DNA from: Gracilaria domingensis
Lineage: Eukaryota; Rhodophyta; Florideophyceae; Gracilariales; Gracilariaceae
Direction: 5' to 3'
Assembly (NCBI GenBank): GCA_022539475.1
Contig: VCMS01000406.1
Location: 47,428 to 86,537 of the forward strand
Length of the DNA: 39,110 nucleotides
The position numbers and the translations under genes were made by a program. How positions within the stretch are numbered: position 1 is the first letter of the stretch; each line of letters opens with the position of its first letter. Below the pieces are notes generated by a model, which was not told the DNA's origin, did no database searches, and saw only the letters and a program-made list of their open reading frames with translations. Shown in pieces: positions 1-36,725 of this stretch.

Positions 1-181
1 GTACGAAAAGATTGCAACGGAAAGACTGCACGGAGAATACAGTCCGTGAGGATACGGTGAGTGTCCGCTTTTATGGGAGGGCGTCAACTTAATTAGGCGG
101 ACAATGAAGCGTACCTCTTCCTCTCCCCGGCACTCTACTTCGTAGCGAGTGCAGCGGAGAAAGGATACGACGGAGCGCCGC

Positions 182-262
182 TCGTGATCCGTGCCATCCA
201 CATCCTCGCGTTCTACTCCGCCGAGTAGAACGCAGAGAGATGTGGATGGCAACGGATCACGA
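182..262. repeat. Subterminal hairpin, left arm
   Basis: A long imperfect palindrome. The outer arms TCGTGATCCG... and ...CGGATCACGA pair with one extra base, and the inner arms GCGTTCTACTC (208-218) and GAGTAGAACGC (223-233) pair perfectly around a four-base loop. The right arm has a different hairpin at the equivalent subterminal place (18021-18082). This suggests that strong foldback near the outer end is a property of the element. Confidence 0.75.
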
Positions 263-603
263 CCCTGTAACGATAGTCGACGGCAGGTAGCGCGGCGCGG
301 CGCGGCGGAGAAAGAGATTTATTTTTTCTGTGCGGAGGATTGGACAGGAGTGTACAGCGTAACAACGTCTGCGCGAAACTCTCAGGTTTATAACCAGTGT
401 AATAATACGAGAAGTACACCCTTGTGTTAGTCGACGGTGTTACCTACTTCCTTTTTGAAAAGAAAGTCACGTGATGTTAACTCAAAATTTATTCTCCATT
501 CTCCAGCTTGACGTCGCATCTTGACTGTCGCGCTGACCTCCTTCCCCTCCAAGACCTTCTTTTGCCGTCTTTGTCGTCGTTACTCCTTCATTTCTTCTTC
601 CCG

Positions 604-1720
604 ATGATCTTACTACTAAAATAAGAAAGCGTGGTGCCGTTCCGTTACTCGCCGAGAGTGCTATCTCTTCAACAGCATGTTAACCGTTGCCCGTTTCGTC
701 TGAAAGCAGCGCTGGAAGATGAAAATAGGCGGCCCATTCGGAGAAGCAAGCGTCTCAAGCTTTCCGCGCCCGCGCCCGCATCTTCCGAAACGGTCACTGC
801 CCTTGTCGCCTTCCCGAGCCTCCGGTGTCCGAGGACATCGTCGACCCCACTCCGTGCGCCCCTCTCATTCCGGACACTTCGCATTGTGTTTCTCCTTCCC
901 CGGGTCCCGCGGCATTAGAGCGAGAACACGGAAGCAGTCCACGCCCAGTGCCTTCTGAGGAGGCCCTCGGTGATTTGCATATGGATTATCTCACGGTTTG
1001 TCTGGCTTCAGTAGCTTCCAACCTTGGTCATCGTGAAGCAGACGAGCTAATTGGGCTACTTCGGGACCCGCGATTCTCGCAAAAGCGATTCAACGAGACC
1101 ATAACAAGTTCTAAGCGCTGTACAGAACTGAAGAACGCCATTTTCGAACGATACGCCTCAAAAGACGGTTTCAATCGAAGAACTGTCTCGCCAGAAGGAT
1201 GTAAGTTCAGCGCCACCCTCTACACGAGAGACCCCCGTTCAGACACTTGTGAAACAGCTCCAGTTGGCTAACAACGAAAACACATTCTTCCACCCTATAC
1301 CTCAGACCCACTCCACGAAAAATATCTCACCCCATGTCCGGCTCTCTCGCAAGAGACGCCACCTCGAAACTTAAGGAAATGGTCATGGGCTCTTTGGATA
1401 GTAGAATAGTGTGGTACTCCCAAGAAATAAGTTACAGTGAATCTTTCGTAGGTATTCTGCATGTATACACCGATAAGTCTTCAACAACTCTAAAGCAAAC
1501 ATCGGTTACCGCCTGTACTCTTCACCTCATATTTCTCAACTTCTCCGACGAGCTACGCCGTAAGCGCATCCGTGATGACCTCACAGTAGTGGCATACTTT
1601 CCTACAACACTGGTAACAGGTTTTCTCATCTGAAGCAGACGCAATGCCATTCGTTTCTAGCAAGTCTCTACGCGATTCCAGGACGCACATCCTTCAAGAA
1701 TCTCTTCGTCAAGTCCTGTA
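604..1720 (+). pseudogene. Broken Plavaka-like transposase N-terminal region (left copy)
   Basis: This is the left-arm counterpart of the open frame at 16482-17654. The same protein is spread over three reading frames: about 631-830 (zinc-finger and RSKRLKLS region), 825-1271 (SEDIVDPTPC to TLYTRD) and 1334-1633 (SLARDATSK to VVAYFP). The equivalent of the right copy's ATG region at 604 is damaged and is followed by a stop. At least three frameshifts make it a pseudogene. Beyond 1633, fragments such as ILQESLRQVL, then FIGEDAVYRVCHP and CHRC (about 1740-1900) continue the similarity past the point where the right copy's frame ends. This supports a longer ancestral transposase. Confidence 0.7.
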
Positions 1721-1876
1721 GCAAATTATACATCTAATGCAGAAAGGTTTTCAGTTCATCGGCGAAGACGCAGTATATCGAGTGTGCCATCCTCAGCAAG
1801 TTTTTGTGCCGATATTCTGAGGCTAAGTACATTCTGTCTACTCTTCATAGGAGCCAACGGAAAGCCCTTGTCATAG

Positions 1877-2960
1877 ATGCAAAGCCCCTCCTCATCTTTA
1901 GGCGGTAATGTTCTTACGTCATTCACTGGACTCTCCCAAAACCACACTAAAAGCGTCAGAAAGACATACTCAGTTATTCTCGAATATGCAAAGAAAGGCG
2001 AAGGAGAAACAAACTTACGTCGTACACGGGAGACGAGATCCAAGTCGGATATTTTCATGCGTTCCAATTCCATATCTCTCATTCTCTCGTCCATCAAAAT
2101 CGCCTTGACCGTAAGATTCATCCAGGGTTATTTCTATGCAGTCTGTTCGAAACAAGGAGAGCTCGCTTCGAACAGTTACGCAACTTGCATCTCGGCATAT
2201 TGAAACTGATTAATATTCCAGAAATCGAGAGACTGTAGTCAGAGACCCTAAGCACTGCAATAGAATCATCATGTTTCTATTGCAGTGCTTAGAGCGGATG
2301 ATCCGCGTCACGTTCATTTCGAACGATACGTACTCAAATCCAGAACTTTACAAACGCAAATCTATCTTCCATGCAATGCAACTTTTCTGTCAGAAGTTTG
2401 CCTTTAGATTTGTCCACGACGAAGAAAGGCAGGTTACTGAATGGAACCTTCACCAAGGCAGATCTCCTTTGAATGATGGAGGCCAAAGCATACAAAGACA
2501 TTGACATATTTTTCCTTTTATGATGGAATTCTTTGAAATCTGATGGGGAGCGCAGGACACGGCCCCAATCAGAAAAATTTTCTCTCAGTACTCGGACGTT
2601 GCTTGGAATAATTATAGGTGCATTAGTGGGCCATTATGTAATGAAAGCTCTATTTCGTCTCTTCGTGGCAGATTGAAGCCTCCAAATGCTGCTCGACAAC
2701 GTAGTCGGCAGCAATTCATAGCTCTGGAAGTGGAACTCTGAAGTTTTATAACGGCTCTTAACAGAAGAAGAACTAACACCTTTGGCAGCATTTTACGGTA
2801 TCTCCACAACACGCCGATTTATATCTTCTCTTGTATTGTTGCTGACAGGCCTTGTTACCGAGAGGCGAAGCGATAGGAGTTCAATATTGGAACTATTGTC
2901 ATGTGCTACAAGCCCAAGCATGCCGGGCTGAAGGGTTTCATAACTACCATATGTTTTGCT
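1877..2960 (+). pseudogene. Decayed coding sequence downstream of the transposase-like gene (left arm)
   Basis: Several short open stretches keep protein-like composition and are conserved with the right arm (14980-16240, minus). Examples are the stretch around 1908-2108, an 81-residue stretch ending at 2504 with the segment VHDEERQVTEWNLH, and a stretch near 2755-2930 reading LLTEEELTPLAAFYG. None is intact, and frames are separated by stops and shifts. They may be the remaining part of the transposase or a second element protein. No family was recognised for this part, so its assignment rests on position and on conservation between the arms. Confidence 0.4.
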
Positions 2961-2969
2961 TTCAACTAC

Positions 2970-3780
2970 CACTCTGGTTGCGTTTTTCTTCCATAGATTT
3001 TTATACTGAATGAATTTAGCATATAGGAGCTGCTACAGCCCCCGTTCTCTAAACCTGTGAGGATCATGTAGTAGTTAGCTGATCAAAACTCCATTTGGTT
3101 CTTTTAGTGTTCCGCAGAGAAATCCACTACCACTATAATTCAGGGATTCTATGATCGTTGAAGGCCTTCTTTGCTGTTTACCAGCCCGTCAGAACGAACC
3201 AATTAAATTTCGATATTAGCGTAAAAAGCCAGAGCCGATGGGCTCATGCTAGACGATATTACCTCATCTACATCATCGGTGAATTTGTATCTTCACCGAA
3301 AACAAGAGTGGCGAGTATTTTAAGTAGCTACCTACTGTCATCACTCTGTTTGTCTGCAGCTCATCCCGGCGCATTACCACTTTCGTGCGTGAGAGTGTTG
3401 AGGCGCTTTCGTAGTTCGTCACCGTGCTGCTCTGAGCAGTGTAAATAGTGTAGTTTGTCAATAAGTACACAACTTGTAGCAAACACATGGTCGTGAGTTT
3501 TTTTACTAGATGAGCATCATTTGGATACGAAAACTAGTTGAGTCTTGTCTAATGAATGTATATTGTGCTTGCAACAAAAAAACTGTGAGTAATGCATCAA
3601 ACTGTGTTTTGGGAGGTTTGGAAACGCTGCAAAACGGTTTAAAAATTTGTCTGTGAACAGGTGGTTGTAGTGGATTTAGACTTATGCGAGTAATCACTGC
3701 GCTCTCGAATTGTGCTTTTTAAGAGCTTATAATACTCGAGATATACTCTCATTGATGTATAGCCGGCGTTGTATATACAG
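2970..3780. other. Arm stretch without a recognisable gene (left)
   Basis: AT-rich sequence with only short chance ORFs. It is conserved in mirrored form in the right arm (about 14520-15290), including blocks that surround the phrase CCTCCCAAAACAC. No domain, RNA gene or promoter could be identified. Confidence 0.5.
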
Positions 3781-3904
3781 CTCTTTTACCTCCCGCCAAT
3801 CCACGTGGCCAGCAGCGTTCACGTGTTGGCGGGCAGGTGCACCGTAATGAGTGCGGGAAGTGTGGAGGAAGGTGTTTTGGGAGGTCTCTGCATGGTGCCA
3901 AAAT

Positions 3905-4225
3905 ATGGCCAGAACGTGCGCGTGGGCGTGGGGGGGGGGTCGGTTGGGTTAGGGTGGCTACCCTAACACAACCGGACCCCCCCGTCCGCGGGCACGTTTT
4001 GGCCGGTTTTCTAAAAAATGTGCTTTTTCATGCCTGCGGGCGGGGGGGGTCGGTCGTGTTAGGGTAGGTACCCTAACACGACCGGACCCCCCCGCCCGCG
4101 GGCACGTTTTGGCCGATTTTTTGAAAAATGTACGATTTTATGCCCGCGGGCGGGGGGTCCGGTCGTGTTAGGGTACCTACCCTAACACGACCGACCCCAT
4201 CCACCCGCGGGCACGTTTTCGCCTC
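3905..4225. repeat. Array of three GC-rich palindromes (left inner end)
   Basis: Three palindromic units are centred near 3957, 4067 and 4176, so the period is about 110 bp. Each has G-rich then C-rich flanks (GGGCGGGGGG / CCCCCCGCCC) around a core with GTTAGGGTA and TACCCTAAC facing each other, and the units are joined by A/T-rich spacers containing TTTTGGCCG. Folding would give long hairpins, and the G runs could form quadruplexes. The array is adjacent to the inner boundary of the arm. Confidence 0.85.
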
Positions 4226-4288
4226 ATTCTGGTAGCGTCCACAGACCTCCTAAAACACACACCGCACGCAACGCCAGCCAAAACGTAG

Positions 4289-4690
4289 CGCATGCTGTTC
4301 GAGCTGAAGCGCCTCGCTGACGCGCGCGAGGGCGCGCATTCCCGTGCGCGGCGCACTCCGCGCGCGGCTGTCTCGCGCCGCAGAGCTGTGCGTCGTCGAT
4401 GTGACGTGGCGCGCGACGCCTTCCAATGTGCGCATGTTGCGCGCTTCAGTCATTTTATGCGCGCTGTACGTGCAGTACAATTGCACTAGGCTCCTTCGCG
4501 CTCCACCCCCGCGTGCACTTCCGCGTGGGGATCGCTGCCGTTGCCCGTCATCACTGGCACCCTGCCATACCGCCCGTAAACCACGCCCTCCGTTCGCTCA
4601 CGGACCTCGCTTCCAGCCTCCCGAACTTTCGCGCGCGCCACTCGTTCACCGTCGCCGCCATCCCGCCGTGAGTCGTCGTCGACGCCGCGT
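4289..4690. other. GC-rich start of the core, no gene assigned
   Basis: A very GC-rich segment with long overlapping open frames in several phases, a composition effect. Nothing recognisable was found. It could include the promoter or 5' end of the lectin pseudogene that follows. Confidence 0.4.
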
Positions 4691-6266
4691 CTCGCGCCGA
4701 TTTGCGTGCTGCTACTGCTGGCTGCCAGAGCCCTCGCGTTGCCGTCGCTGCTGTAGTGACAGCAGCAAAACCCGCAGCTATTCCAGTTTCTCTACCTGGG
4801 CGCGGGAGGCCCGGACCTCTTCTTTCGGCACCCGAACGAGGCCCATCGCCGCCGGTGACCCCGTCTCCGACGGGTTTCAGCTGGGCACGACCATGATCAC
4901 GCGCAGCCGCACCGGTCGCGACGTGGTCCTCCTCATGTCGGCGAGCCAGTCAAATTAAGCGCTGTTCTACAACGACATTGCCACCGATACGCAAAACTTC
5001 AACGGCTACTTCGACGTGGAGTTAGATACCGTGCGCGATTCGCATGACCCTGCCAATGGTATGGACTTCTTCTTTTTGTGGGACCGCCCGAGGTTAGGCT
5101 ATGCCATGGGTATTGCGCATATATTTGTGGGGCTTGGCATCATTATCGACACCTTTTCCAACTCTCGAACGCGAAATGTGGCCCATATGTACGTTTATGT
5201 GTCGGACGGAACCAAGCAATGAAAGCCTGACACCGATGGCGCGGATACCAAGCTTTTCGAGGGCTGCTCGCTTGAGATGAACCACCCAATTCGCGTGTAA
5301 GTCCAGCTGCTCGGTGGCAATCTTCACGTGGGCGTCGCTATGAACCCACGCGCCCCACAACGCTGGCATACGTGCTTCAAGGTTTGGGGTGTGCAGCTGC
5401 CATTCTCTGGTGGTGGCTTCCTCGCACTACCTGCTGAGACCGGCCATTTCTTTGCCAATCATGAGGTCCATGACGCCGTCTTAATTCATGAATCCGCTCA
5501 GGTTGCCCACACTTATCGATCCGACTACTATTCGCAGCAGTATGGCGCCGGTTCTGCTTCCGGAACTACGGACCGACCACCGTGGTCAGTGACAGCAACA
5601 ACAGCGGAAACAGCATCAACAACAGCAGCAGATCGATAATTCGCGCGGCTACGTGCCGCCGGCTTTCAATGGTAGCTCCAGTGGTGTAGCAATGACAGCA
5701 CCGCCCCTGCTCCGCCTCCGCATCGCACCGATCTGAACCCTACCGCGCGCATGCACCGCAGAGAGGACGCCACCTCGTCGATCTCAGGCTCTTCAGACCT
5801 GCAGGTGTACGAGGTGTACAACTCTATGACGTCCATTTTCAAGGGCCTCGGCGACGAGAATGCGCAAGAAAGAAAGCTTCGACTGGAGGGTGTGCGCCAA
5901 ATCATTGCGCAACTCATTCGCGAGATGGAGAAACAAAAGGGCGACATGTGGCAGTTGGTGGCCGTTTTGAAACCTCTTAAGGCTACTGCAGGCGACTTGT
6001 CGCGTGCTTCGGGCAGGTTTTCTAGCCAGTTGCAAGGCCTTCATAACTCGCGGCGTGCGCTTAAGTAGAAGACGCATAACATTTCTGATTCGCATGATGA
6101 TCTGAACGAGGAGTTGGTGGATCATCACGAGAGCATCACCGAGCAGTCTCCTGGCGGAAGTGGTACCCTTATCATGTTCGTAATCATTCAAGCGCTTTTG
6201 AGAGTTGGCGTATACCATGTCAATAAGATGTCGTTGGCCGTGCGGAAAGTGCATCGAATGGTCTAA
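4690..6266 (+). pseudogene. L-type (ERGIC-53/VIP36-like) cargo lectin pseudogene
   Basis: Intact members are type I membrane proteins that carry glycoproteins between ER and Golgi. A signal-peptide-like stretch (ICVLLLLAARALALP, 4700-4744) sits in another frame. From about 4860 one frame runs to 6266. It contains a legume-lectin-like domain (FNGYFDVELD, GLGIIIDTFSNSRTRN, then LFEGCSLEMN, WHTCFKVWGVQLPF and ALPAETGHFFANHE), a probable coiled coil (5800-6060) and a C-terminal membrane segment (TLIMFVIIQALLRVGVY, about 6165-6215) followed by a short basic tail. This is the family's domain order. In-frame stops occur at 4956-4958, 5220-5222, 5297-5302, 5637-5639, about 5673 and 6066-6068, so it is a pseudogene. 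No introns are visible. The family call is from recalled motifs; the stop positions are read directly. Confidence 0.75.
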
Positions 6267-6770
6267 CACCACGAGAAAATCTTACTGCCAGCCTTTGGGC
6301 GACATCATTGGCACGTCGAGGGAAACAAGATTATCCTGAAAAGCCGTCACTGATGCACTCTATCGTCGTCATCAGAATGTGGTCGCCGGTTCCGAGTTCA
6401 GACCATTAGCTTTCTGTTCTTCTTTTATACACATGCACCCCGGGTGATGATGCAGAGTTAACGCGCTTTCATTCGGCATGAACAGATGGAACACATGCGT
6501 CTGGTGCTCACCCAAGGTCTCAAGCACAGCATCCCCCAACGAGTAACTACCGACGCGTACACCGCACGCATGTAAAGGCGATTACAACTAGCTTCAGTTG
6601 CGTTCAAAGCTTACTTGGATTACCTAGAATGAGCTAAAAGGGACCGCGCTTCCAAGTGAGTGGCGCGCGATTGAGTTATTCATAGTCGTTGGACGGTCAC
6701 CAGGTAGATACGTAAACACACAGATTAGCCGAACCTCTTTGCCTAACTGCCTAAGCTCTACTTTTCAACC
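6267..6770. other. Intergenic stretch between convergent pseudogenes
   Basis: About 500 bases between the 3' ends of the lectin and Ecm29 pseudogenes, which converge here. No ORF of note, hairpin or repeat was seen. It presumably holds their former 3' untranslated regions. Confidence 0.4.
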
Positions 6771-9700
6771 TCAAAAGCCCCAGCCTAAACTATGATCACG
6801 AAATGCCAACGCCGTGCATAGTTTAATTGCAACGGATCGCACCCAAGGCTCGGAATCTTCGTTCCGAGACCTCTGGATCGCAATTAGCGTGTCCTCTACA
6901 ATCACACCCTTCATTGCCGTAGAATCCTTGGAAACGTTGACCAAGTGATCAAGAATTGTTAACCCACTATTTCTTAGCACTTTATACTTGGGTTCGTGAA
7001 TGCCGTTTTTGCTGAGGTTTACTAATCGTTTAATCAATGCCTCAGTGCGCTCCAGGGAGTTTCTAAATTGCAGTTCATGTTTGGAGAAACGTTCGGACAA
7101 CTTCTCAATGGCTTGAAGTACAGTTAGTCGAATGTCCCAATCGTTCTGCATCAGTTCTTCAAACACACACAGCAAATTAAGTACGTGTTCTTCTAGCTTC
7201 TCAACGCCCGCCACCCCTGTGATTGAAGATTGCAGGCACTGAATCGCTGCTTTGCACAATAGCTTTTGCGACTTTCGCGCTTTGTTCCAAGCATCAACAG
7301 CATCTGCATCAGACCCAGTTTCCCACACCATCTGTGACACATTTGGTACGCTAGCGTTTACATCCGACGAGTTTGGAGACACGAGCTCTGACAAGTGATC
7401 CCTGACTTTCTCGTACATGCAAACGGTTTCTCGGGTGTTAACCAGCACCTTCCTCGCCGCATCAATTGCTGCAATTCGATAATCCTTCTTCCCTCGATCA
7501 GATTCGGACAGCACAGGCTGCACAACAGCTACGCTCCCTCCGCACGACTCCCACAAAGATGCGCTTGAACAGAAATCTGCCAAAGACCCAATGGCCTCAA
7601 TTGCAACATGCTGTCCTTTCCAAATATGACCTGGAAGCACCGCTAACAACGTTTTTGTGCTTCGCGACATGTACTGTACATCGACAATGTCATTTGAAGC
7701 GTTCGTGAGGTCCCCTAGCGTGGCTGCGGCGTTCCTTTTCACGCGGTACTGAGCAGAAGTAGATAGCCGTTGCTCACATATTTCAACAATCGCCTTTGCG
7801 TACAAACGAAGCCCGGCCTGAGTACTTGGCGCACCTTTATTCCAGGCGTCTTTCCAGTTCTTGCTGTCATCTCCTACGTCGTCGTCTGTTTCAGGGCGCC
7901 CCATGTATGCGAAGGGCCGTATAGAGCTTGCGTGCTGCTGGGTCGTATCGGGCGCCATCCGACACAACCCAGCAGCGAGAGACGAGGCAAGCGCGCGATC
8001 CCGAGGATACTCCGATGTGGCCTTCTTGCTAATTTTGTTTGCAATACTTTGCAACTTCATCGACGCGGCACAACTTTGAACCTCTGCCAGCGGCCTTGCA
8101 CCATGCCTTTCGAAGCATTGCGTTGCGCTCCATGCCCGCAGCGCTTGCCGCTGAAAACTGCAGCTTTGCAGCATATGTTTCCATGCCCACTGCTCTGGAT
8201 TGCAGAACGCTCGACATCAACCTTGCCGTCGCTGCACGCGTAGGAATTCCCACTCCTACGCGAGCCAATCGTGCCAGATTCGGAACCACCTCCGCCGCGA
8301 TTGTCTCGTCAACTTGCCCTATGAGCCTTTCAATCGACTCGATCAAAGAGGACGAGGACATACTCGATGCAGTGACCAGAGCGTTTTGCAGCTCCTCCGG
8401 TGAGGCTACATGATACTCCGCGTAGTTTAAGATTTGCGGCTCGAGCTCTGTCGCAACGTCCAACAGATTCGCGATCAAATCCGGCACAGACGACCGCAAG
8501 GCCGTTCCTCCATGTCGTGTGATCTCGGACAGAGTCTTTGACACGAGCGCTCTCACCTCCTCGGCCCTGTGTGTGAAGGACGTCATAAGCACAGACAGTA
8601 CAACGTCAACGGCTTGAGCCGATTCCTCTTCACCCAAATAGTTTGGATTACGTAGATATATCGAAAGTTCAGAGAGTGCCCTTCCAGTGCCTTGAGCACT
8701 CTTTCGCACACTTTCCTTCATATCATCCATAGCCCTCAGTGTGTAGTACCAGAAATCCTTTAAAGAGTCCTTCACCTCCTCCCATGTGCGGGAGGCAAGA
8801 ACGTCGCGAAGCGCGGCGCACCCCGCTTCTCGCGAACGCCATTGCCGGGAAACGATTGACTTGATGCAGTGGTCCGTCACTGCAAGCAAGTTCGCCTTGA
8901 TCGCCTCGGCCACTGAGCCGTGACCAGAAGCCTTGACCACCGCGGATATAATTGAGCGCATAGCAATGCGAACGCTCTATATCGGGTGATGGCAGTACAC
9001 ATACAAGCGCAGCAAAAGACTCTTCACGTGCAGTCGAAGCTGTTCGGCGGCGATATCATTATTCAAGAGGGAACTGCCAATGCTGCGCGCTTGCGACTGT
9101 TCCAGGTTGACCCATGTCTTGAGCCGGACTACAGAGCTTCTCGTTGGTACCAGAGCGCGCGCCAGCCGTTTTTGATTCCACTTCCACGCCGCTGAACTCG
9201 AGAAACACTCCTTGATTGCCCGGGACGATCACCGCAGCCCGCTCGCCGGCGGTCAGAGACCGGACGAGGTTTCCAACAATATCTTGCTGACCCTTGGGGG
9301 GAAGTATACGATATTGGAGAGCGCGTCGCAGCAGACGGCGACGAGAAGCGCACAAATACATCTCCCAAGGCAGACTGGGGGGCAATGAGCGAGAACAAGT
9401 CTTGCAGCTCATGCCGTAGCGCGCGTGCCACCTGCTCGCCCAGCGAGGGCGCGTTCGAAGCCAGCAGCACCACCGCCAGCGCGGCTGCAGCAGCCGCTGC
9501 TGCGCGGTGCTCAGCGCGGCTCGCAGCGCGTGCAACGCGTCCGCGTCGGCGCGCAACAGCACGTGCAGATTGGCGGCGGGCAGCAGCTGCAACCGGCGTG
9601 CCGGCGCGAGCTGCTGCACTAGGTAGCGCAGCGCAAACAGCAGATATGCTGCCACGGAGCAGCTACGCGGCTAGTGGCGCTCGCAATGCGCTCCGTACAC

Positions 9701-10212
9701 TGCGATAATGGGCGCAAGCGGCGGGGGTGGCTCCCGCGCGCTAGCGCGGCGTGGCGCGCGAGTTTGCGCCGGCGCATCCCGGCAGCGGCGAGTTGCATGA
9801 CGCGTGGGCTGGCGTTGGAGGCGGCGAGGACTTCGATAAGGCGCGCGTGCGTGTCAGCTAAGGAGAAGATGTCTTCAGCCCAGTGTACGGCGGTGGCGCA
9901 CGCCGGCTCTCACAGCGGGCGCGCGTCGAGCATGGCGGGCATGAGCGCGCCCAGCGCGGCGGCGCGAAATGGCGACGAGTCGCGCGTGCTCAGCGACACG
10001 AAAAGCGACAGCGTGACGAGCGCCTACTCGGCGGCGGTGGGCACGGGCGGCGGGGGCGCCAGCGCGCTCGCGCTGGAGGAGAAGCGCGGGGCGGCTGTGG
10101 GGTCGGCCAGCAGCAGCGACGGGATGCGCAGCGCTTGGTAGAACAGCGCGGTGTAGCCGATGGCGCGCAGCGCGTCGCGGAGGAGCGGCGCGCCTTTGGT
10201 GCAGGCACCCAC
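6771..10212 (-). pseudogene. ECM29: Ecm29 proteasome adaptor/scaffold pseudogene (central to C-terminal part)
   Basis: Ecm29 is a HEAT-repeat protein of about 1800 residues that binds the 26S proteasome. Four minus-strand blocks in different frames follow the family's order. 10212-9690 holds HEAT-like helices (RDALRAIGYTALF). 9655-9059 holds LCSPAQDMGQPG, matching the ELC.LA..MGQPDL segment. 8961-8029 holds SRQWRSREAGCAALRDVL, LRAMDDMKESVRKSA and EPQILNYAEYH. 8174-6771 holds the C-terminal part with SKNWKDAWNKGAPSTQAGLRLY. Between 9059 and 8961 a matching stretch is interrupted by a stop and a shift. Frames change near 9660, 9070 and 8100, so it is a pseudogene. The N-terminal half is absent. 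It could extend a little beyond 10212, but the evidence there is weak. No intron-like gaps are needed. Confidence 0.82.
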
Positions 10213-10239
10213 CGCACGCGGCAGCGGACGGCGTAGAGA

Positions 10240-10600
10240 GCGTTGTGACCAGCGCCGGTAGCAGGCGCGCCAGGACGTGAGCTGAGAAGAGTAGCGAAAT
10301 AGAAATAAATGACGTGGAACTGGTCCAAATCATAATTGCGTCGTATGATCTGGGTCCAATGGAGACCATATTTCGTCATCAATATCTCTGCTGCTACATT
10401 TTGTACCAATAACGATCCATAGAATACAATACGGCAAGGCATCCAAATGGCCACTGTACTGTACACGCCCATTATACGGCCAATTAAATCTATTTTGGAA
10501 ATAATTACGGCCACTAATCGGCCATTTATAGCCCGAAATTGATGTTCATATGGGCGAAGTCTTGAAGAGAGCTAAGGAGCACGCATGATGCCCCGTTGGT
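10240..10600. other. Stretch between divergent Ecm29 and LCB2 pseudogenes
   Basis: About 360 bases, markedly less GC-rich than its surroundings, with several copies of CGGCCA/TGGCCA-type words around 10450-10530. The two flanking pseudogenes diverge from here, so it could be a former shared promoter region. No TATA box or other element could be fixed. Confidence 0.3.
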
Positions 10601-10603
10601 TGG

Positions 10604-11706
10604 TTGGTTCATCCAGCGTACACACCCATTCAGGCCGATGTCACTCCCGCGGCCGAGCATTCTTCCATGTCTCCGGACCCTACTGCCAGGGTTACGAGGT
10701 TTCGTAACTTGGGCAGGTGCAATTACCTGGGGTATGCTGAGGTTCTTGAAAGTGTTCACTCGTACGTCACCGATGTCTTAGATCAGTGTGGTGTCGCTTC
10801 GTGCAATGTGTCTGTGTCTACGGGGCGCTCTGAGCTTGTACGCAACCTGGAGCGCACGGTCGCCAAAGATTTTGGTAAGAAAGATGCCATCGTGGTTGGC
10901 ACCGTCCTTACCACCAACTGGCAGATCATCCCAGCTATTGTGGGTAGGGGCGATCTCGCCATCTCCGGCCTGATGAATGACGCGTCTGTCATGGTCGACG
11001 GTCGCTCATTCGGCGCCAGGATTCGCGTGTTTGAACATAATTTGGCAGAATCGTAGGAAAGTAATATTCTTGTTGGCATTGCTACGGGATACCCTGACAA
11101 GAGCCCTCTGTGGAAACGAATCATGACGGTTGTCGAGAGTATGTACTCAGTGGAAGGTCAGATGTGCAATCTTTGCCAGGTTGTCGCAGTCAAAAATAAG
11201 AATGATGCCTGCTTATACGTGGATGAGGCGAATTCCATTGGCGCCCTTGGACCGACCAAACGAGGTGTTTCGGGGCATCATCACTATGATAGTGTAGATA
11301 CGCGTAGTATTGATATTATGATACGTACCTTCACTAAATCGTTCAGGACCGTTGGAGGTTACTTCTCTTCCGAATCTGCTCTAACTGAACGTATTTTCGC
11401 GCTTTCTCCAGCTTCTCTCTATGCGTCGGCATCGTGTCCTCCGAAATCGTGGCAGCAGGTGCATTCGAAGAGGTTAGGACTGAAATAAAGGACGAAAGTG
11501 GATCTGTATCATTCGGGAAGATGAAGGAAGCGTTCCCAAGCTTCTGTGGTGGATGCCGTGCGGATGTTTACGGGGTAACCGACACGGGAGTGATGACTGC
11601 GTACATCGCGCGATGGAGCAACTGCGAGTTGGTGGCAATGAAGCCGAGCCTGACGCTGCTGCGGGAACAGTACCGACACGAAAGGCATCATCTCCAACAG
11701 GGCTAG
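10604..11706 (+). pseudogene. Serine palmitoyltransferase LCB2-type subunit pseudogene
   Basis: Intact LCB2 is a PLP-dependent alpha-oxoamine synthase at the ER that condenses serine with palmitoyl-CoA, the first step of sphingolipid synthesis. One frame carries NLGRCNYLGYAE, the region around STGRSELVRNLE, GARIRVFEHN, VESMYSVEGQMCNL, YVDEANSIGALGPTKRGV and the PLP-lysine motif as TFTKSFRTVGGY. A TAG at 11054-11056 interrupts it. The frame ends near 11488, and a weaker C-terminal match continues in another frame (from about 11434, VYGVTDTGVM). The usual DEAHS motif reads DEANS, losing a conserved histidine. The membrane-anchoring N-terminus is missing. Stop, frameshift and active-site change together indicate a pseudogene. 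AONS relatives such as aminolevulinate synthase fit less well because of the LCB2-like wording of the motifs. Confidence 0.85.
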
Positions 11707-11709
11707 TTT

Positions 11710-12200
11710 GGCGAGAGGATGAAACTGTTCTGGGGTGTGATGAGCGCGCTGCCAATGGTTGTGGCGTCCAACGCGCGGGAGGCGGAGGGCGCGAAGACGG
11801 CACCGGCGATGTGCCGTGAGTACATGGTCGGGCTGTACCTGGAAGCGGCGGGACGCACGACGAAATCGGTAGGCGACAGCGAGTGATAGGTGCAGTCGGC
11901 GGGTCTCTTCTCGCGGCAAAGAGCGCAAAGTAAATAAAATTTGCTTCTAGAATTCTAAGGTGGGGAGCCATGATAGATGAGAATGAATAGCAGGGTGGTT
12001 GACATGAGATGAGTTGCGACTTGCATCGCCACTTGGGAGAAAATGGAAACGCAAACTAGCACGAGCGCAGATTTGAGAGAGGGTCGCGGAAAAGAGTGGA
12101 TGGGGTGGTGCGGCGAAGTAGAACCTCTACAAAAACTAAGAGACTCAAGAATTAAACTGCGCGAGATGGAATTCAATATTCCAAAATTTCATAATTTTTT
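11710..12200. other. Stretch with no assigned gene
   Basis: Follows the LCB2 remnant. Short open frames to 11889 may be the decayed C-terminus, but no motif was recognised. The part around 11930-12200 is AT-richer and lacks notable repeats. Confidence 0.35.
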
Positions 12201-12202
12201 GA

Positions 12203-13020
12203 GTGCCAGCCTCTGCCACCCCCTCGCGCGCCCCAAATAGCCCAAAAACTAGCTTAGTTTCCAAAGCGAACAGACTATATTCCACTTTGCAGAACACAGA
12301 CGTAGCGGCTTCCGCCGCGCGCCAGCTGCACGCGGGCGCGTTATGTGGCAGCGTCGCCGACTTCTCCGCCGCGCTGGCTCGCGCCGTGCCGCGCTTCGTC
12401 AGGCCAAGCGCGGCGACGTTGCCGTCGCCGCTGGCCGTGCTGTCGGCACTGCCACGCCATCGCGCCGGGCGTCTCTTTCTCGCGGCGGCCGCGCTGGGCG
12501 GGCAGCACTGCGTGCGCGACTCGGCGTTGTTCGCCAAGCGCGGCGGCGCGTGGTACGTGGCGACTGCCGCCACCAATGCCAACCCGGGCCTCGGCATGCC
12601 GCCACGCGTGCGCACGTTCGTGAGCGCCTAACTGGACCCGTGGCTGCGCGCGCGCGCTGCAGCGCGACAACGACGCGCCCACAGTGAGCAGCGTGGCCAT
12701 CTTCAAGCTGCCGTTGCTGTTCAACCTCATGCCGGTGGAACTCATCGCAGACGTTGACACGCTAAGCATGTTGCTGTAAAAGATGCTCACTGACGTGCTC
12801 TCTGCCGTTACGCTTCTGATCCAGGGCTTCGAGGTGCTGGTGGTGGGCGCGCAGCCTTCGTAGGCCGCCATCACGCGCGTCATCGGCGCCGACGTGCGCA
12901 CCTGCACTGCGCGCGCCGACAAGGCCGCCATGATGCTTGTGGCGATGTGCGGCTCGCAGCGCTCGTTTCTCATCGCCGCCGTTTGCCGTCGCGCTCGCGT
13001 TCGTGGCCGGCGGCGTGCTC
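12203..13020 (+). pseudogene. Unidentified GC-rich decayed coding stretch
   Basis: A 142-codon open frame (12203-12631) continues in a different frame from about 12640 to 13020, with stops near 12776 and 12861. The second part reads like a protein, not chance sequence: FKLPLLFNLMPVELIADVDT, then VTLLIQGFEVLVVGAQ, alternating hydrophobic helices or strands. Minus-strand frames are also long here because of the high GC, so coding strand is inferred from the hydrophobic pattern only. A weak resemblance to DENN-type domains was considered but not supported. Function unknown. Confidence 0.3.
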
Positions 13021-13029
13021 GCCGAGTTT

Positions 13030-13840
13030 GGCGCCATGCGCTGACGAGCGCGAAACAGCGGCCGCGCAACGCGCAGCGCTGCCTGATGCGTATCGCGGCG
13101 AGGGGCGCACACTTCGCAGCCAGGCGTGCGTGCGCCAAGGGAGAGCGATGCGCGTGCAGCTGTTGCATGAGTTAATACACCATATTGAGCGCGTAAACGA
13201 GCTTCGCCGTTTTCGCCGCAGTTGTTGCTTGAGTCTGATCTCACTTTGTCACCTTCTACTACGGGCCACGTCCGCGCAATTTCTGCGCGCGCCTCGCTCT
13301 CAGCCGCCACGAGGCGCGCGGTGGCTCAGCCTCGTCACCAAAAGGCGCGCCTTCGTCACTACTTCGCGCCTCCAAAGCGAACCAGCTCCGCTACCGCGCC
13401 TTTGAGCGCGGTAATATAACGCATCGCCGCCGCGCGGAATGAGCTCGTCGCCATGACGCGCGCGCTGCACACAAGCGCGGTCGCCGCCGCGCTACTCCTC
13501 GCACTGGCCGCCAGTGCGAGGAGTAACGCGCACAGTGTGCGCGGCGCCCGAATCGTGAGGTTTCCGGTCTCCACTCCATGATAGCGAAGGGCGCTTGGTC
13601 ACGCGCGGTGCACATAAACTGGTGCTGATTCACGTAGCATGATGACGCGCTCACAGCAGCCAAGTCTCGCACGCATGGGCCATCCAGGATGAGCTGGCAC
13701 GCAAACGTCGTTGAACGACGCACCGCCTGCAGGAATGGCGCCGCGCGCTCCGTGGGCGGCGCGGAGGTTTGCTGGCGATGGGTTGTTGCAGACGGGTGTC
13801 ATCAGACATGTCGTAATGTCATTCTGTCGTATTGGCAGCG
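13030..13840. other. GC-rich end of the core, no gene assigned
   Basis: Many overlapping ORFs in all frames reflect GC content. No domain was recognised. It contains one perfect hairpin at 13493-13525, listed separately. Confidence 0.35.
13493..13525. repeat. Perfect hairpin
   Basis: Arms TACTCCTCGCACTGG (13493-13507) and CCAGTGCGAGGAGTA (13511-13525) pair perfectly across a CCG loop. It is 15 base pairs long, isolated within the core, and its role is unknown. Confidence 0.8.
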
Positions 13841-13844
13841 CGCG

Positions 13845-14395
13845 AGATCAAGTTGTGTTAGGGTTGCTACCCTAACACAACTCAACCACCCTGCCCGCCG
13901 GCACGTTACGTTTTGGCTGGATATGCGTGCGGTGTGTGTTTTGGGAGGTCTGTGGACGCTACCAGAATGAGGCGAAAACGAGCCCGCGGCCGGGGGGGGT
14001 CGGTCGTGTTAGGGTAGGTACCCTAACACGACCGGGCCCCCCCGCCCGCGGGCATGAAATCGCACATTTTTGAAAAAATCGGCCAAAACGTGCCCGCGGG
14101 CGGGGGGGTCCGTTCGTGTTAGGGTAGGTACCCTAACACGAACGGACCCCCCCGCCCGAGGGCATAAAAAAAGCACATTTTTTAAAAAACCGGCCAAAAC
14201 GTGCCCGCGGGCGGGGGGGTCCGTTCGTGTTAGGGTAGGTACCCTAACACGAACGGACCCCCCCGCCCGAGGGCATAAAAAAGCACATTTTTTAAAAAGC
14301 CGGCCAAAACGTGCCCGCGGACGGGGGGTGCGGTTGTGTTAGGGTAGCCACCCTAACACAACCGATCCCCCCCACGCCGGTGGGCACGTTCTGGT
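13845..14395. repeat. Array of GC-rich palindromes (right inner end)
   Basis: Units are centred near 13868 (short form), 14017, 14127, 14239 and 14347. The last four are spaced 108-112 bp apart and have the same design as the left array: G-run, CGTTCGTGTTAGGGTA, mirrored, C-run, joined by A/T-rich spacers with GGCCAAAACG. The 14127 and 14239 units are nearly identical neighbours, and by flank alignment the left arm has three units where the right has four. This shows tandem gain or loss after the arms separated. Confidence 0.85.
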
Positions 14396-14979
14396 CACAT
14401 TTTAGCACCATGCCGAGACCTCCCAAAACCCCTTCCTCAACACTTCTTGCACTCATTACCATGCACCCGCCCGCGAACACGTTGGCACCGCTGTCTACGT
14501 GGATTGGCGGGATGGCAAAAAGCTGTACATTAATTAGAGTATATCTTGAGTATTAGGAGCGCTTCAAAACGCACGAATGGAGAGCGCTACCATTGTTCGC
14601 ATAAATCTACGTCCACCAAAACCCTTCGCTAGAAGGAACTTTTTGAGGCCATTCTGTAGCGTTTTGATACCTCCCAAAACACAATCGGTTGCATTCCTTG
14701 CAACGATTTTGTTGCGAGCTCAGTACAGATCTTTTAGAGATAAATCAACTAGTTTTTTCATCCAATTGATGCTCAACCAGTAACATAATACGCGACCTTG
14801 TTACAATTTGTGTAGTGTCTGACACACTACACTATTTAAACTGATCAAAGTGGCGAAGAGACGTACCACCGAAGCGCGCCAACACCCTCACGCACAAAAG
14901 TGGTAATGCGCAGGGATGAGATGCATAAAAAAACAGAGTGACGACAGTATGTAGCAACTTAAATACTCGCCACCACTTT

Positions 14980-16480
14980 TTCCCGTGAAGATACAAATTC
15001 TACCGAGGATGAAGATAAGGTATTATCTAATAGCATGAGCGCTTCCGCTCTAGCGTTCAATTTATATATCTGAATCTAATTTGTTCGTTGTGATGGTCTG
15101 ACAAACAGCGATGAAGGCCTCCAACGACCATATAATACCGGATTTATAGGGGTAATAGAGCGAGCTCTTTGCGAAACACCATAAATAACTAAATGGAGTC
15201 CTGATAGGCTAACTACTACATGATTTTCAGAGGTTTAGAGAACGGGGTTTGTAGCAGCTCTTATATGCTAAATTCATTCAGTATAAAACTCTATGAAACA
15301 GAATGGCGACGAGAGTCGTCGCAGAAAGCAAAACAGATGGTAGGCATGAAAACCGTTCAGCCCTGTGTGCTTGAGCTGGTAGCACATGATTATCGTTCCA
15401 ATTTTGAAATCGTATCGCTTCACCTTCCGTTAACAAAGCCTGTCACCAGCAATACAAGAGAAGACATTAATCGACGTGTTGCGGAGATGCCGTAAAAGGC
15501 TGCCAATGGTGTTAGTTTTTCTTCTGTTGAGAGTCGAGATAGAACCTCAGACTCCCAGTTCTAGAGCTATGAATTCCTGCCCACGACATTGTCGAGGAGC
15601 GTTAAAGGCTTCAATCTGCCACCGAAGGGACGAAATAGAGTTTTCATTAGATCATGCGCCACGATTGCACCTATAACTAGTCCAAGCGACGCCCGAGTAC
15701 TGAGAGAAAACTGTTTTGATTGAAGCCCTGTCCTGCGCTCCCTATCAGATTTCAAAGAATTCCTTTACGAAAGGAAAACCATGTCAAGGTTTTTGTATGC
15801 TTTGGCCTCCATCATTCAAAGGAGATCTGCCTTTGTGAAGGTTCCATTCAGTGACCTGCCTTTCTTCGACGTGGACAAATCTATATGTAAACCTTTGGCA
15901 AAAAAGTTGCATTGCATTGGGGATAGATTTGCGTTTGTAAAGTTGCTGATTTGAGTACGTATCGTTCGAAATGAACGTGACGTGGATGATTCTATTGCAG
16001 TGAGTAGCGTCTCTGACTAGAGGTTTTCGATTTCTGGAGTATTAATCAGCTTCAATTTGTCTGGATGCAAGTTGCGTAACTGTTCGAAGAGAGCTCTCCT
16101 TGTTCCCAACAGACTGCATAGAAACAAACTCTGGATCAATCCTACCGTCAAGGGGGTTTCGATGAACGACGGAATAAGAGATATGTAATCAGAACGCTTG
16201 AGAGTACCGCCTGAGATATACTCTCCCTCGCAAGACATATACTTCTTCCTGCCTCGTCTTTCTTTGCATATTCTAGAATAACTGAGTATGTATCTCTAAC
16301 GCTTTTGCTTTGGTCTTGAGAGGGTCCAGTGAATGAAGTAAGAATACTACTGCATAAAGATGAGAGAGGGGCCTCGAATCTATGACAGGAGCTCCTCTTT
16401 TTGGTCCCGTGAAGAGTTAACAGAATGTCTTTAGCCTCAAAAGTATCCGCACGAAAACTTGCAGAGAATGGCACACTCGA
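14980..16480 (-). pseudogene. Decayed coding sequence downstream of the transposase-like gene (right arm)
   Basis: Mirrors the left-arm stretch 1740-2960. Remnants include a segment in 16148-16474 (SILTSFTGPSQDQSKSV, then a probable AKK helix), one in 16017-16238 and one in 15567-15755 (LGLVIGAIVAHDLMKTLF). A frame lost near 16500 by a small deletion relative to the left arm reads IGEDKLSRVCH, the counterpart of the left arm's IGEDAVYRVCH. These are probably the rest of the element's transposase, but no catalytic residues could be placed. Confidence 0.4.
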
Positions 16481-16481
16481 C

Positions 16482-17654
16482 TTAGTTTGTCTTCGCCGAT
16501 GAACTGAAAACTTTCTGCGTGAGATTTAGAATGGGCTCCAGGACTTGACGAAGAGATTCTTGGAGTATTTGCATCCTGGACTCGCGTAGAGACTTGCTAG
16601 AAACGAATGGAATTGCGTCTGCTTCAGATGCTGAAACCTCGATCAGTGTGATAGGGAAGTATGCCACTACTGTGAGGTCATCACGGATGCACTTACGGCG
16701 TAGCTCGTCGGAGAAGTTGAGAAATATGAGGTGAAGAGGATAGGCGGTAACTGATGTTTGCTTTAGAGTTGTTGAAGACTTATCGGTGTATACCTGCAGA
16801 AGACCTACGAAAGATTCACTGTAACTTATTTCTTGGGAGTACCACACTATTCTACTATCCAAAGAGCCCATGACCATTTCCTTAAGTTTTGAGGTGGCGT
16901 CTCTTGCGAGAGAGGCGGACATGCGGTGGGATATCTTCGTGGAGTGGGTCTGAGGTATAAAGTGGAAGAATGTGTTTTCGTTGTTAGCCAACTGGAGCTG
17001 TTTCAAAAGTGTCTGAACGAGGTCTCTCGTGTAGAGGGTGGCGCTGAACGTACATCCTTCTGGCCAGACAGTTCTTCGATTGAAACCGTCCTTTGAGGCG
17101 TATCGTTCGAAAATGGTGTTCTTCAGTTCTGTACAGCGCTTGGAACTTGTTATGGTCTCGTTGAATCGCTTTTGCGAGAATCGCGGGTCCCGAAGTAGCC
17201 CAATTAGCTCGTCCGCCTCACGATGACCAAGGTTGGAAGCTACTGAAGCCAGACAAACCGTGAGATAATACATATGCAAATCACCAAGGGCCTCCTCAGA
17301 AGGCACTGGGCGGGAACTGCTTCCGTGTTCTCGCTCTAATGAAGCGGGACCCGGGGAAGGAGAAACACAATGCGAAGTGTCCGGAATGGGAGGGGCGCAC
17401 GGAGTGGGGTCGACGATGTCCTCGGACACTGGAGGCTCCGGAAGGCGACAAGGGGCAGTGACCGTTTCGGAAGATGCGGGCGCGGGCGCGGAAAGCTTGA
17501 GACGCTTGCTTCTCCGAATGGGCCGGCTATTGTCGTCTTCCAGCGCTGCTTTCAGACGAAACGGGCAATGGTTGACATGCTGTTGAAGAGATAAGACTCC
17601 TCGGCGAGTAACGAAGGGGCACCCACGCTTCTTATGTGTACAGTAGTAGACCAT
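16482..17654 (-). CDS. Plavaka-like transposase N-terminal ORF (truncated)
   Basis: A 390-residue open frame starting at the first ATG (17652-17654); the frame upstream to 17738 has only a TTG. Residues 5-30 form a zinc-finger-like CX6CX13HX3C motif. Residues 46-54 (RRSKRLKLS) look like a nuclear localisation signal, and 55-120 are proline/serine rich. Residues 289-333 (YTDKSSTTLK, then AYPLHLIFLNFSDELRRK and VVAYFP) match the recurrent Plavaka/CACTA pattern DKT.L....AYP.YL...N....IRRK.....AYLP, and ILQESLRQVLEPI near 363 matches the next helix. Known relatives are much longer, so the catalytic part is missing. A one-base loss relative to the left arm ends the frame. It is probably a non-functional remnant, though the frame is fully open. 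Confidence 0.6.
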   Translation of the reverse strand: MVYYCTHKKRGCPFVTRRGVLSLQQHVNHCPFRLKAALEDDNSRPIRRSKRLKLSAPAPASSETVTAPCRLPEPPVSEDIVDPTPCAPPIPDTSHCVSPSPGPASLEREHGSSSRPVPSEEALGDLHMYYLTVCLASVASNLGHREADELIGLLRDPRFSQKRFNETITSSKRCTELKNTIFERYASKDGFNRRTVWPEGCTFSATLYTRDLVQTLLKQLQLANNENTFFHFIPQTHSTKISHRMSASLARDATSKLKEMVMGSLDSRIVWYSQEISYSESFVGLLQVYTDKSSTTLKQTSVTAYPLHLIFLNFSDELRRKCIRDDLTVVAYFPITLIEVSASEADAIPFVSSKSLRESRMQILQESLRQVLEPILNLTQKVFSSSAKTN

Positions 17655-18020
17655 GGGAAGAAGAAATAAACGAGAAACGACGACAAAGACTGCAAGGGAA
17701 GGGCGTCCGAAGGGAGAAGGAGGTCGAGCGACAGTCAATATCGACGTCTTGCTCAGAACGGAGAATATATTTTGAGTTTAAATCACGTGCTTTCGTTCAA
17801 AAAGGAACGTAGGTACACGTCGACCTCAACACAAGGGTGTATTTCTCGTATTATCTACCACTGGTTATAAACCTGTGGTTTCTCAACGTTGTACGCTGTA
17901 CACTTGTCCAATCTCGCACAGAAAAATAAATCTCTTCCCTCCGCCGCCGCCCCCGGCCGTCCGACGTCCGACCTTTTGTTACCGTCGTGATCCGTGCCAT
18001 CCTCGCGTTGTACTCCGCTC

Positions 18021-18082
18021 CGTCGTACGTTTTTCCGCCCTCGCACTCGCTACGAAGTGCGAGGGCGGAAAAAAGTACGACG
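18021..18082. repeat. Subterminal hairpin, right arm
   Basis: Arms 18021-18047 (begins CGTCGTACG, ends CCTCGCACT) and 18056-18082 pair almost perfectly around an eight-base loop. It lies about 145 bases inside the outer end of the right arm, mirroring the position of the left hairpin at 182-262 though with different sequence. Confidence 0.75.
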
Positions 18083-18332
18083 GATTACGAAGTAGCGTGC
18101 TGAGAATGGATTCCATTAAGCGGACATGAAGCGTACCTCATTCTCTTTCTCCGCCCTCGTCGGACGCCTCCATAAAGCGGACAGCATCCGTATCTCACGG
18201 ATGTATTCCGTGCAGTCTTTTCGTACGTGCTTCCATTTCCTTCTACGTATCTTTGTTCTAAACTAACCAATCCTCACCACGTCTCTTCGCGCTCTGCGAC
18301 ATGTACACGGCAAGAAAACGGCTTTGGGTTAC

Positions 18333-18477
18333 TTTTGCGAGTTACTAGGTCCCTCGACTTTTCTAGCGCAACGTTTCTGTTTTGCTCTTATCAATGGTAC
18401 GTTCTATCGCATTTCAACTGTATCCAACGGAGCATTGACTAACTTATGGATACTTTCTGCTTGCGTATACAGGTAAA
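18333..18477 (+). repeat. 144 bp direct repeat, copy A
   Basis: Runs from TTTTGCGAGTTACTAGG to GCGTATACAGGTAAA and is repeated at 18708-18851 with a handful of substitutions and one single-base indel. The 375 bp offset leaves 230 unique bases between copies. It ends with TATACAG, which resembles a 3' splice site, but no exon could be attached. No coding potential. Confidence 0.85.
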
Positions 18478-18707
18478 CGACCAATTTCATTTCGTCTCTC
18501 AAGATCGATCTCTGCCTGTTCGGGATAGGCGATTCTGGTACTTGGTTGGGACATAGGCTGCTCTCTCGTTTATCGCATCTTGCGGTATGTTTGCTGCATG
18601 GGCATTCTTGGTGTCCTTGCTTGTGAGTTCTCGCTTCGACACCTTTTTGCGCTTTACGATGATGGTGGGCTGGTAATCTAACCGATCCCTTTCCTTTTTC
18701 TTTTTCA

Positions 18708-18851
18708 TTTTGCGAGTTACTAAGTCCCTCGACTTTTCTAGCGCAACGTTTGTGTTTTGCTTTATCAATGGTACGTTCCATCGCATTTCAAATGTATCCA
18801 ACGGATCATTGACTAACTTATGGATACTTTCTGCTTGCGTATACAGGTAAA
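18708..18851 (+). repeat. 144 bp direct repeat, copy B
   Basis: Second copy of the 18333-18477 repeat, about 95% identical by eye. Both copies stop at the same word (CAGGTAAA), after which the sequences are unrelated. The pair could be short LTRs of a degenerate element or a tandem duplication. There is no clear TG...CA border. Confidence 0.85.
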
Positions 18852-18892
18852 TGACTTTTGATGCGGAGGTAGCTCACGAGTTGCAGGTGCAG

Positions 18893-19044
18893 GTTCCTCA
18901 AGTAGGGAACCACGCATCTGGGCATGGTTCCCTACATGAGGAACGGAGAGGATGAGGCGCTTCGCGCCTCATCCTCTCGGAGTGCGTATTTGTTCTACCG
19001 ATACAGCCGATGGTGGACGTGCAGTCTGCGGCATCTGCCGCAGA
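18893..19044. repeat. Cluster of three consecutive hairpins
   Basis: Hairpin 1: GTTCCTCAAGTAGGGAACC (18893-18911) pairs with 18926-18944, one mismatch. Hairpin 2: 18946-18960 (GAGAGGATGAGGCGC) pairs perfectly with 18964-18978 across a TTC loop. Hairpin 3: TCTGCGGCA (19025-19033) pairs perfectly with TGCCGCAGA (19036-19044). Three strong foldbacks in 150 bases are not expected by chance. There is no gene nearby, and the role is unknown. Confidence 0.8.
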
Positions 19045-19475
19045 TTGCGCCTACACCCGCTCCATCATGGGGATATGGTACATGTAATATAGCGAAGTAG
19101 TGGTTAGCAAAAGCGGTCGATAGAAGAATAGATACGAATAAAACGGTATGATTTCATAATGGGCATCATCTGTACTAGCACTAGTATTCCATGCGTTGCA
19201 GGGTATCATTCCGCAGAAGGTATCGTGTAATGTGCACCTTAATGGAAACTGAACCTAGACTTCGCGAAATACAGTTCAGGTAGCCCTCGACTAAAGAACT
19301 AGCACGAGTGGAAAACCCACCAGTATTTACTGCACAGCGATTCTGGACGACCCAAGCAATTATCTGCAAATTTTGAAATAATTGATCTCGATATTTTTTC
19401 AAAAAATTTACTGGACGACTCTTGCCAATTTCTGGACGACCCTCGCCAAAAACTAGCATCTGCAAGAGACAGACG
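19045..19475. other. Stretch with no gene before the first retrotransposon
   Basis: AT-rich, without a recognisable gene. It contains two nearby copies of CTGGACGACnCT(T/C)GCCAA at about 19410-19450, and CTGGACGACCC also occurs at about 19342. This is the outer flank of the 3' repeat of the retrotransposon. Confidence 0.45.
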
Positions 19476-19800
19476 TGGTTCTCCGTTGGCGCCTCCGTTC
19501 GTTTCGCTCACCAACCCGGCTTCTTCAAGCTCTGTCTCCACCTTCCACCTATCGCAAGCCTATTTGGCTGGGTGGCAGGATGCGTACAGATGCGTGGAGG
19601 AGACGATGAACCGTCATCGTCCCTCAGAAATCACGTATGGGGTCCTCTCTAGAACCCTACGGACCATGCGCCGCTTTCTGATGGCCATCAAGGCCCGCTT
19701 GCTAGACTCGTAACCGCTCCTGCCTCCCCGTGGATTAGCTTCAAGTAAATGTATGCTTTTCTTTTTTTTTTTTTCGTTTGTGTCTCTTTCGCTCTTCACA
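19476..19800 (-). repeat. Putative 3' LTR of retrotransposon 1
   Basis: 325 bp. On the minus strand it starts TGTGAAGAGCG and ends GAGAACCA. Compared with 27592-27916 there are eight substitutions and no length change. It follows the purine-rich GCGGGGGAG tract, as expected for a 3' LTR. Oddly, on the plus strand it contains an open coding stretch ending in AIKARLLDS and a stop at 19711-19713, the tail of the protein at 27431-27829. Confidence 0.6.
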
Positions 19801-19801
19801 C

Positions 19802-19812
19802 ACTCCCCCGCT
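19802..19812 (-). promoter_or_regulatory. Putative polypurine tract of retrotransposon 1
   Basis: On the minus strand GCGGGGGAG immediately precedes the TG start of the 3' repeat. Ty3/gypsy elements prime plus-strand DNA synthesis from such a tract. It supports reading the 325 bp repeats as LTRs. Confidence 0.5.
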
Positions 19813-19965
19813 CAGCGGTCGCTTCGCCTGGGCGACCGACAAGTCTTCTTACATCGTAGGCTGCAAAGATCCATTCCTTGAAACTTCTTCCGTAGTGTAC
19901 TGGAATGGGTATGGGGGCTCTGGGTAGTCCCGGTCCGGCTCAAAGTCCACAATGAACTCTTCTCG

Positions 19966-36705: not shown

Positions 36706-36725
36706 TTTGGGCGGTTGTCCCTTCC

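Follow-up and report, generated by a model that had tools for sequence, protein, structure and literature searches.

The Plavaka transposons treated in PMC12730594 duplicate 2 bp of their target in class A and 2–3 bp in class B, and the Plavaka literature among the matches listed concerns, to judge by titles, fungi, an animal relative and a green alga. In the passages on Amoebidium in PMC11244446, large repeats hold gene clusters of up to 50 kb, with many tyrosine recombinases that have dinoflagellate or red algal hits. [A literature search for Plavaka with red alga, Rhodophyta or Gracilaria gave no Plavaka among the matches listed, though such a paper is not thereby excluded; there was no match for Plavaka with ‘gene capture’, nor for Rhodophyta combined with ‘DNA transposon’, ‘gene fragments’ and ‘captured’ together.] The locus at issue is a stretch of 39,110 nucleotides from the red alga Gracilaria domingensis (contig VCMS01000406.1, C406:47428–86537; hereafter the window), whose genome was searched as 77.9 Mb in 680 contigs. 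A first-pass annotation had described window positions 1–18226 as one inverted-repeat element of 18 kb with arms of 4.3 kb. Two related transposons nested in reverse orientation, L within R, are very probably what is present, R itself lying in a Gypsy-type long terminal repeat (LTR) retroelement; R and L would belong to one high-copy Plavaka-type family and the inverted repeat would be a product of the nesting. The arm-core-arm unit does not recur at the loci scored. The parts are assigned as follows.

1–12302, plus strand: element L, the inner and younger insertion, with about 1.5 kb of its left end outside the window.
12303–19475, minus strand: element R, the outer insertion, whose remaining ~2 kb (the right-end part) is expected to the left of L.
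12303–12304, no strand: inferred target-site duplication of L in R, TA (R copies free of L read ..GCGCTAGCGG..).
19456–19475, minus strand: left terminus of R, CGTCTGTCTCTTGCAGATGC on that strand.
19476–27917, minus strand: Gypsy-type retroelement with R in one LTR.
19476–19801 and 27592–27917: LTR parts of the Gypsy-type element, 97.5% identical.

The decisive position is 12302/12303, a boundary within 1–18226 that the first-pass annotation missed. With the apparent core as query, 19 of 870 candidates were scored, the window included, leaving 18 other loci. At 16 of these the match ends at the equivalent of window positions 12302–12308; the remaining two (C245:50605–55956 and C562) are partial matches, and among all 19 only the window continues past 12302. 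With 9000–19475 as query (19 of 1685 candidates scored), six loci, on C116, C65, C27, C185, C180 and C216, match from 12303 rightwards, and several more start in the hairpin array, at about 14081. Beyond their terminal ..ACAGACG, eight right ends of L have seven different flanks, that on C171 being the same as that on C312. Both R-type copies read that are without L (C27 and C64) run uninterrupted across the insertion point, where they have TA. One transposon, L, has its right terminus at 12302, and sequence of a second, R, follows from 12303. Arms standing as separate elements, which the first-pass annotation had named as the observation that would tell against it, are in substance what these loci hold. 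[The shared right flank of the L copies on C312 (L035) and C171 (L036) could reflect a duplicated region, allelic contigs or insertion inside a repeat.]

Beyond 19475 the sequence matches the interior of the repeat at 27592, and a minus-strand frame lying between the two repeats gives RNase H and integrase matches; the repeats are read as the LTRs of a Gypsy-type element. Because R copies exist without L, because of the right ends of L and because of the LTR match, we are confident that the order of insertion was Gypsy, then R, then L, with L in reverse orientation inside R and R inside the Gypsy LTR.

The mirrored arms themselves stand: 244–4223 and 18002–14081 form an inverted repeat of 83.8% identity over 4018 aligned positions, with host-gene sequence between them. 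Their proposed outer limits do not. Position 1 is the edge of the window and the 10,000 bases further left read N, so position 1 is no element boundary. At all 18 other arm loci (L011–L028) a mirror-image piece of 18226–19475 lies upstream of the position-1 equivalent (at L028 a single piece only, beside a run of N), and the outer terminus there is the equivalent of 19475 rather than of 18226. Each arm had also been said to start with subterminal hairpins. Small palindromes do lie near the outer visible ends, and the larger arrays are at the inner ends of the arms.

182–262, no strand: small palindrome of the left arm, ~1.7 kb from the terminus of L.
3872–4290, no strand: hairpin array at the inner end of the L arm, in ~110-bp units (GTGTTAGGGTA..TACCCTAACAC), beyond which cargo starts.
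11977–12302, plus strand: right-end segment of the family, 90% shared with the C27 and C64 copies and ending ..AACACAGACG at 12302.
13852–14429, no strand: hairpin array of R, at the inner end of its arm.
18019–18084, no strand: small palindrome in the arm of R.
18333–18855, no strand: repeat unit belonging to the family's left-end region, present in two copies ~375 bp apart.

Folded as single-strand DNA, 13845–14395 gives −231.6 kcal/mol (z −22, 100 shuffles). The ~110-bp units of both arrays include a palindrome, GTTAGGGTA..TACCCTAAC, that is telomere-repeat-like. Two other arm loci have arrangements of their own: at L015 (C516:1–9500) two family arms stand head to head, their left-end regions meeting near 5908, and at L022 (C169) the equivalent of window position 1951 adjoins the right-end piece 11993–12303 in reverse, perhaps a further nested insertion.

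Elements of the family end in CGTCTGT...ACAGACG, with TGT/ACA starting 4 bases inside. Genome-wide, with up to 2 mismatches, there are 563 left-end and 576 right-end matches; the reversed-pattern control gave 0. Two-bp target duplications of various dinucleotides flank 13 of the 15 insertions read: all three L copies with both ends read (C5 TT, C161 AA, C378 AA), the copies on C27 (TA) and C6 (TT), and eight of ten further elements (GG, AT, TG, AA, AT, AA, AC, TT). When 91 of the 100 listed left ends (contigs up to C64) were paired with the nearest same-strand right end within 45 kb among 100 listed right ends, 49 found a partner; 35 of these pairs span no more than 16 kb, with a median of 11,671 bp. 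The C6 copy measures 6,378 bp between termini and has its hairpins ~0.6 kb short of the right end; R at C27, the C64 copy and the copy of L at C5 are 9,160 bp, 11,671 bp and 13,844 bp long. Comparison of L with the C6, C27 and C64 copies puts the cargo slot after the hairpin array and before the right end, and the layout appears to run from the left end through transposase gene, hairpin array and variable cargo to a right end of ~140–330 bp. If most ends come from elements of median size, the family would amount to an estimated 6–7 Mb, or about 8% of the genome.

On the preferred reading, L would have inserted into R in the opposite orientation. The left-arm sequence common to both (left-end region, transposase gene and hairpin array) would then give the appearance of a long inverted repeat, and the apparent ‘core’ would be the cargo of the inner L together with part of the outer R. 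A single composite element, its inverted arms and core mobile together, is also suggested by mirror-image arms around a core that is repeated elsewhere, yet none of the 18 other scored loci continues across 12302, R copies match from 12303, and at other loci either half is bounded by termini and 2-bp duplications of its own. With matches stopping at 12302 and starting at 12303, and with R copies free of L, it is rejected at the scored loci and is very improbable overall.

The transposase genes give the family its affinity. Both those in the window are broken.

600–2749, plus strand: broken Plavaka transposase gene of L; the longest same-strand open frame in the arm is 180 aa.
15589–17777, minus strand: broken Plavaka transposase gene of R; a 431-aa frame matches PF18759 with E 3.9e-7.

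The R arm fragment scores 30.1 bits against PF18759 (cut-off 26.3), and the frame of L alone 16.3 bits (L013), under that cut-off. A relative on C60, with an open frame of 1100 aa, reaches 70 bits (E 2.8e-19), and ~2.3 kb of its gene aligns with the R arm at 87% and with the L arm at 83%. The Plavaka/CACTA affinity first proposed from the sequence is borne out by the PF18759 matches of the R arm and of the C60 protein. In the latter, CHRC and HLLDH, read by eye, are candidates for the C(2)C and H(3–4)H motifs that precede the last catalytic E in the Plavaka/CACTA clade. Among 123 scored Plavaka matches (672 candidates in the genome), 21 lie in frames of exactly 1100 aa, and on the contigs covered by the left-end list (C23, C49 and C60) the family left terminus is 2.4–2.8 kb upstream of such frames in three of three cases. 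Of 19 arm copies listed, the window's own among them, 10 have the same three frames, of 224, 195 and 167 aa; the other nine differ in at least one frame or are cut. No frame longer than 373 aa was found in the tested stretch of any of the 19. For the R-arm fragment, a protein search that needed shared 5-residue words and similar length found no relatives at E 0.001. [A second Plavaka group, with open frames of 1110 aa (6 match rows, profile 106 or 110 to 317), is apparently distinct from the family.]

Host-gene sequence lies in the cargo slot of L.

6526–9308, minus strand: 3′ half of a captured ECM29 gene, including at least 270 bp downstream of the stop codon.
9351–10276, minus strand: additional pieces from the 5′ half of this ECM29 copy, interrupted by internal deletions.
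10555–11443, plus strand: piece of a captured aminotransferase gene, 80% identical to an open-frame gene on C131.

The host genes stand elsewhere in open frames, ECM29 of 1884 aa on C113 and the aminotransferase of 670 aa on C131. Segment 6526–9308 is 93% identical to the C113 gene with gaps counted and 94.8% over gap-free columns, and within L the ECM29 cargo is antisense to the transposase. The aminotransferase assignment comes from a PF00155 match; we take the gene to be serine palmitoyltransferase-like. As the alignment extends at least 270 bp past the ECM29 stop codon, it suggests that genomic DNA was copied, and ECM29 was probably captured in that form. Differences from the host gene at codon positions 1/2/3 number 44/30/57 for ECM29 and 45/48/77 for the aminotransferase, a pattern near what would be expected of unselected decay after capture, with the aminotransferase appearing the older. 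Elements paired at C2 (12,472 bp) and C54 (12,893 bp) have an aminotransferase piece (90–91% over ~100 aa), and no ECM29 was found there among the listed matches. From identities to the host of 80% against 93–95%, and from these elements with the aminotransferase piece only, we infer the order of capture: L would have gained the aminotransferase piece first and most or all of ECM29 with downstream DNA later. Both copies would have decayed afterwards as passengers. For the capture itself, ectopic gap repair at the DNA level may be the likeliest candidate. The cargo of L contains a decayed copy of most of ECM29 and an older aminotransferase piece, and the gene capture put forward in the first-pass annotation is real. 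Where that annotation had counted three unrelated host genes in the core, host genes are indeed present, and the tests find two: no third was found that stands as a gene of its own, and 9351–10276 is mostly ECM29.

Two separate inverted insertions around an ordinary host segment had been offered as the alternative to one element. A form of it is supported, in that two insertions in opposite orientation are present; the core, however, is the cargo of L and part of R and not a host segment. Host-like genes between arms are what such a segment would look like, but here that sequence belongs to L and accompanies it at 16 of the 18 other loci scored; of its 112 match rows, 43 (window included) are near full length at 94% identity or more, and the open-frame genes are elsewhere, on C113 and C131. 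As originally framed, with a host segment in the middle, the proposal is hardly credible. Scarcely any weight attaches to the idea that the copies of L arose by segmental duplication of a single locus and not by transposition. The shared right flank of C171 and C312 speaks for it, but eight right ends have seven different flanks and all three L copies with both ends read have 2-bp duplications.

Some observations weigh against the reading of L and R as nested members of a Plavaka-type family. The left junctions of both are beyond the window, which leaves the target duplication of each readable on one side at most. No target duplication flanks two of the 15 insertions read, on C53 and C41, and for 42 of the 91 left ends the listed right ends include no partner, in part because that list covers 100 of the 576 right-end matches. 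At the C324 copy of L, the stretch where a left end is expected (L040) has no match to window 1–20000. The frame breaks are common to just those 10 of the 19 arm copies. With its transposase gene broken, L would most likely have been moved in trans by relatives with the open 1100-aa frame. For the C60 transposase, too, the search by shared 5-residue words and similar length found no protein relatives at E 0.001. Lastly, the termini CGTCTGT..ACAGACG are unlike the TGT..ACA of class A and the CATCA..TGATG of class B in the Plavaka passages of PMC12730594.

The ECM29 of L has more diverged counterparts elsewhere in the genome. In a search in which 25 of 370 candidates were scored, near-complete ECM29 sequences (query 28–1575, with 4–5 stops) were found on C248, C439, C105 and C384, one on C481 in two pieces (28–627 and 623–1575), and one on C510 over 28–1236. 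Those on C439 and C105 are 99.6% identical to each other and both are 84% identical to the host gene on C113. The C439 alignment has one 1-bp gap (a frameshift) and three stops, and C105 four stops. Over 1067 codons, C439 differs from the host gene by 100/64/323 at positions 1/2/3; the ratio of third- to second-position differences is 5, against 1.6–1.9 for the captures in L, and the C439/C105 pattern is not that of a copy decaying since capture. On C105 a family left terminus lies at 141161, and the distance from Plavaka match to ECM29 is alike on C105 (7,020 bp) and C510 (6,896 bp). This left terminus and the similar transposase-to-ECM29 distance at two loci argue for the C105 ECM29 being inside an element; counting against it, no right end followed by CG, the dinucleotide of the left flank, was found for it on C105 among the 19 exact matches.

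Over 782 residues the C439 protein is closer to C113 (89.8%) than to the EukProt relative P0004 (85.6%), identities that do not point to a very distant donor. For the host ECM29 protein (7993 candidates scored) the closest match is a EukProt transcript at 87%; next come Gracilariopsis chorda (73%, covering 38% of the query), unnamed proteins at 51–57% and Chondrus at 54%. These matches fit a florideophyte host, probably near Gracilariales, and speak against the fungal host that the Plavaka match had first suggested. It is possible, if on balance unlikely, that the C105-type ECM29 came from another red algal species via a transposon (horizontal transfer), or that it was long functional on a transposon and is recently dead. 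A duller alternative is a lost paralogue of the Gracilaria domingensis genome. Another species, a lost paralogue and a long-functional transposon copy remain as candidate donors. A single ECM29 capture common to L and the C105 type is unsupported, L being near the host gene and the C105 type not, and comparison in 150-base windows gave no conversion boundary.

To the right of the Gypsy-type element the window holds further features. At 34031–38388 there is a second retroelement, whose minus-strand matches are to reverse transcriptase and, weakly, to integrase. At 30616–32808 three adjoining plus-strand frames of 263, 267 and 199 aa are separated by single stops; the middle frame (267 aa), the one scanned, has no Pfam match.

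If the account given here is true, a Plavaka-type family with more than 550 end matches is present in a small red algal genome, and some of its members contain decayed copies of host genes. Open-frame host genes, together with numerous near-identical copies and others decayed to varying degrees, would make it a usable system for gene uptake by cut-and-paste transposons, and for possible gene transfer between species.

Pack-TYPE elements have, by definition, no transposase sequence inside. L has host-gene pieces between both its ends and also keeps a recognisable, broken transposase gene, which implies that it is non-autonomous; in this, and in a cargo slot between hairpin array and right end, it is unlike Pack-TYPE and Pack-CACTA elements. 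It resembles those of plants (PMC8903248) in having gene fragments between DNA transposon ends. Set beside the Plavaka passages of PMC12730594, the family is alike in its transposase, which is above the PF18759 cut-off, and, with respect to PlavakaA, in its 2-bp target duplications. It is unlike the Plavaka elements treated there (Kojima 2025) in its red algal host and in host-gene cargo where theirs is TET/JBP, and it is best filed, on the strength of the transposase, as Plavaka-related and outside classes A and B. With the Plavaka-flanked giant repeats of Amoebidium it has in common large repeats with Plavaka transposase outside fungi; it differs in the capture of housekeeping genes, of which the Amoebidium passages of PMC11244446 have none. 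In the transduplication of histone H3 in Pseudocercospora, due to a hAT element (PMC6710886), a DNA transposon likewise took up a copy of a housekeeping gene and amplified it, with the original remaining intact; superfamily and kingdom are different there, and the case here involves a multi-kilobase gene with downstream DNA and a second gene.

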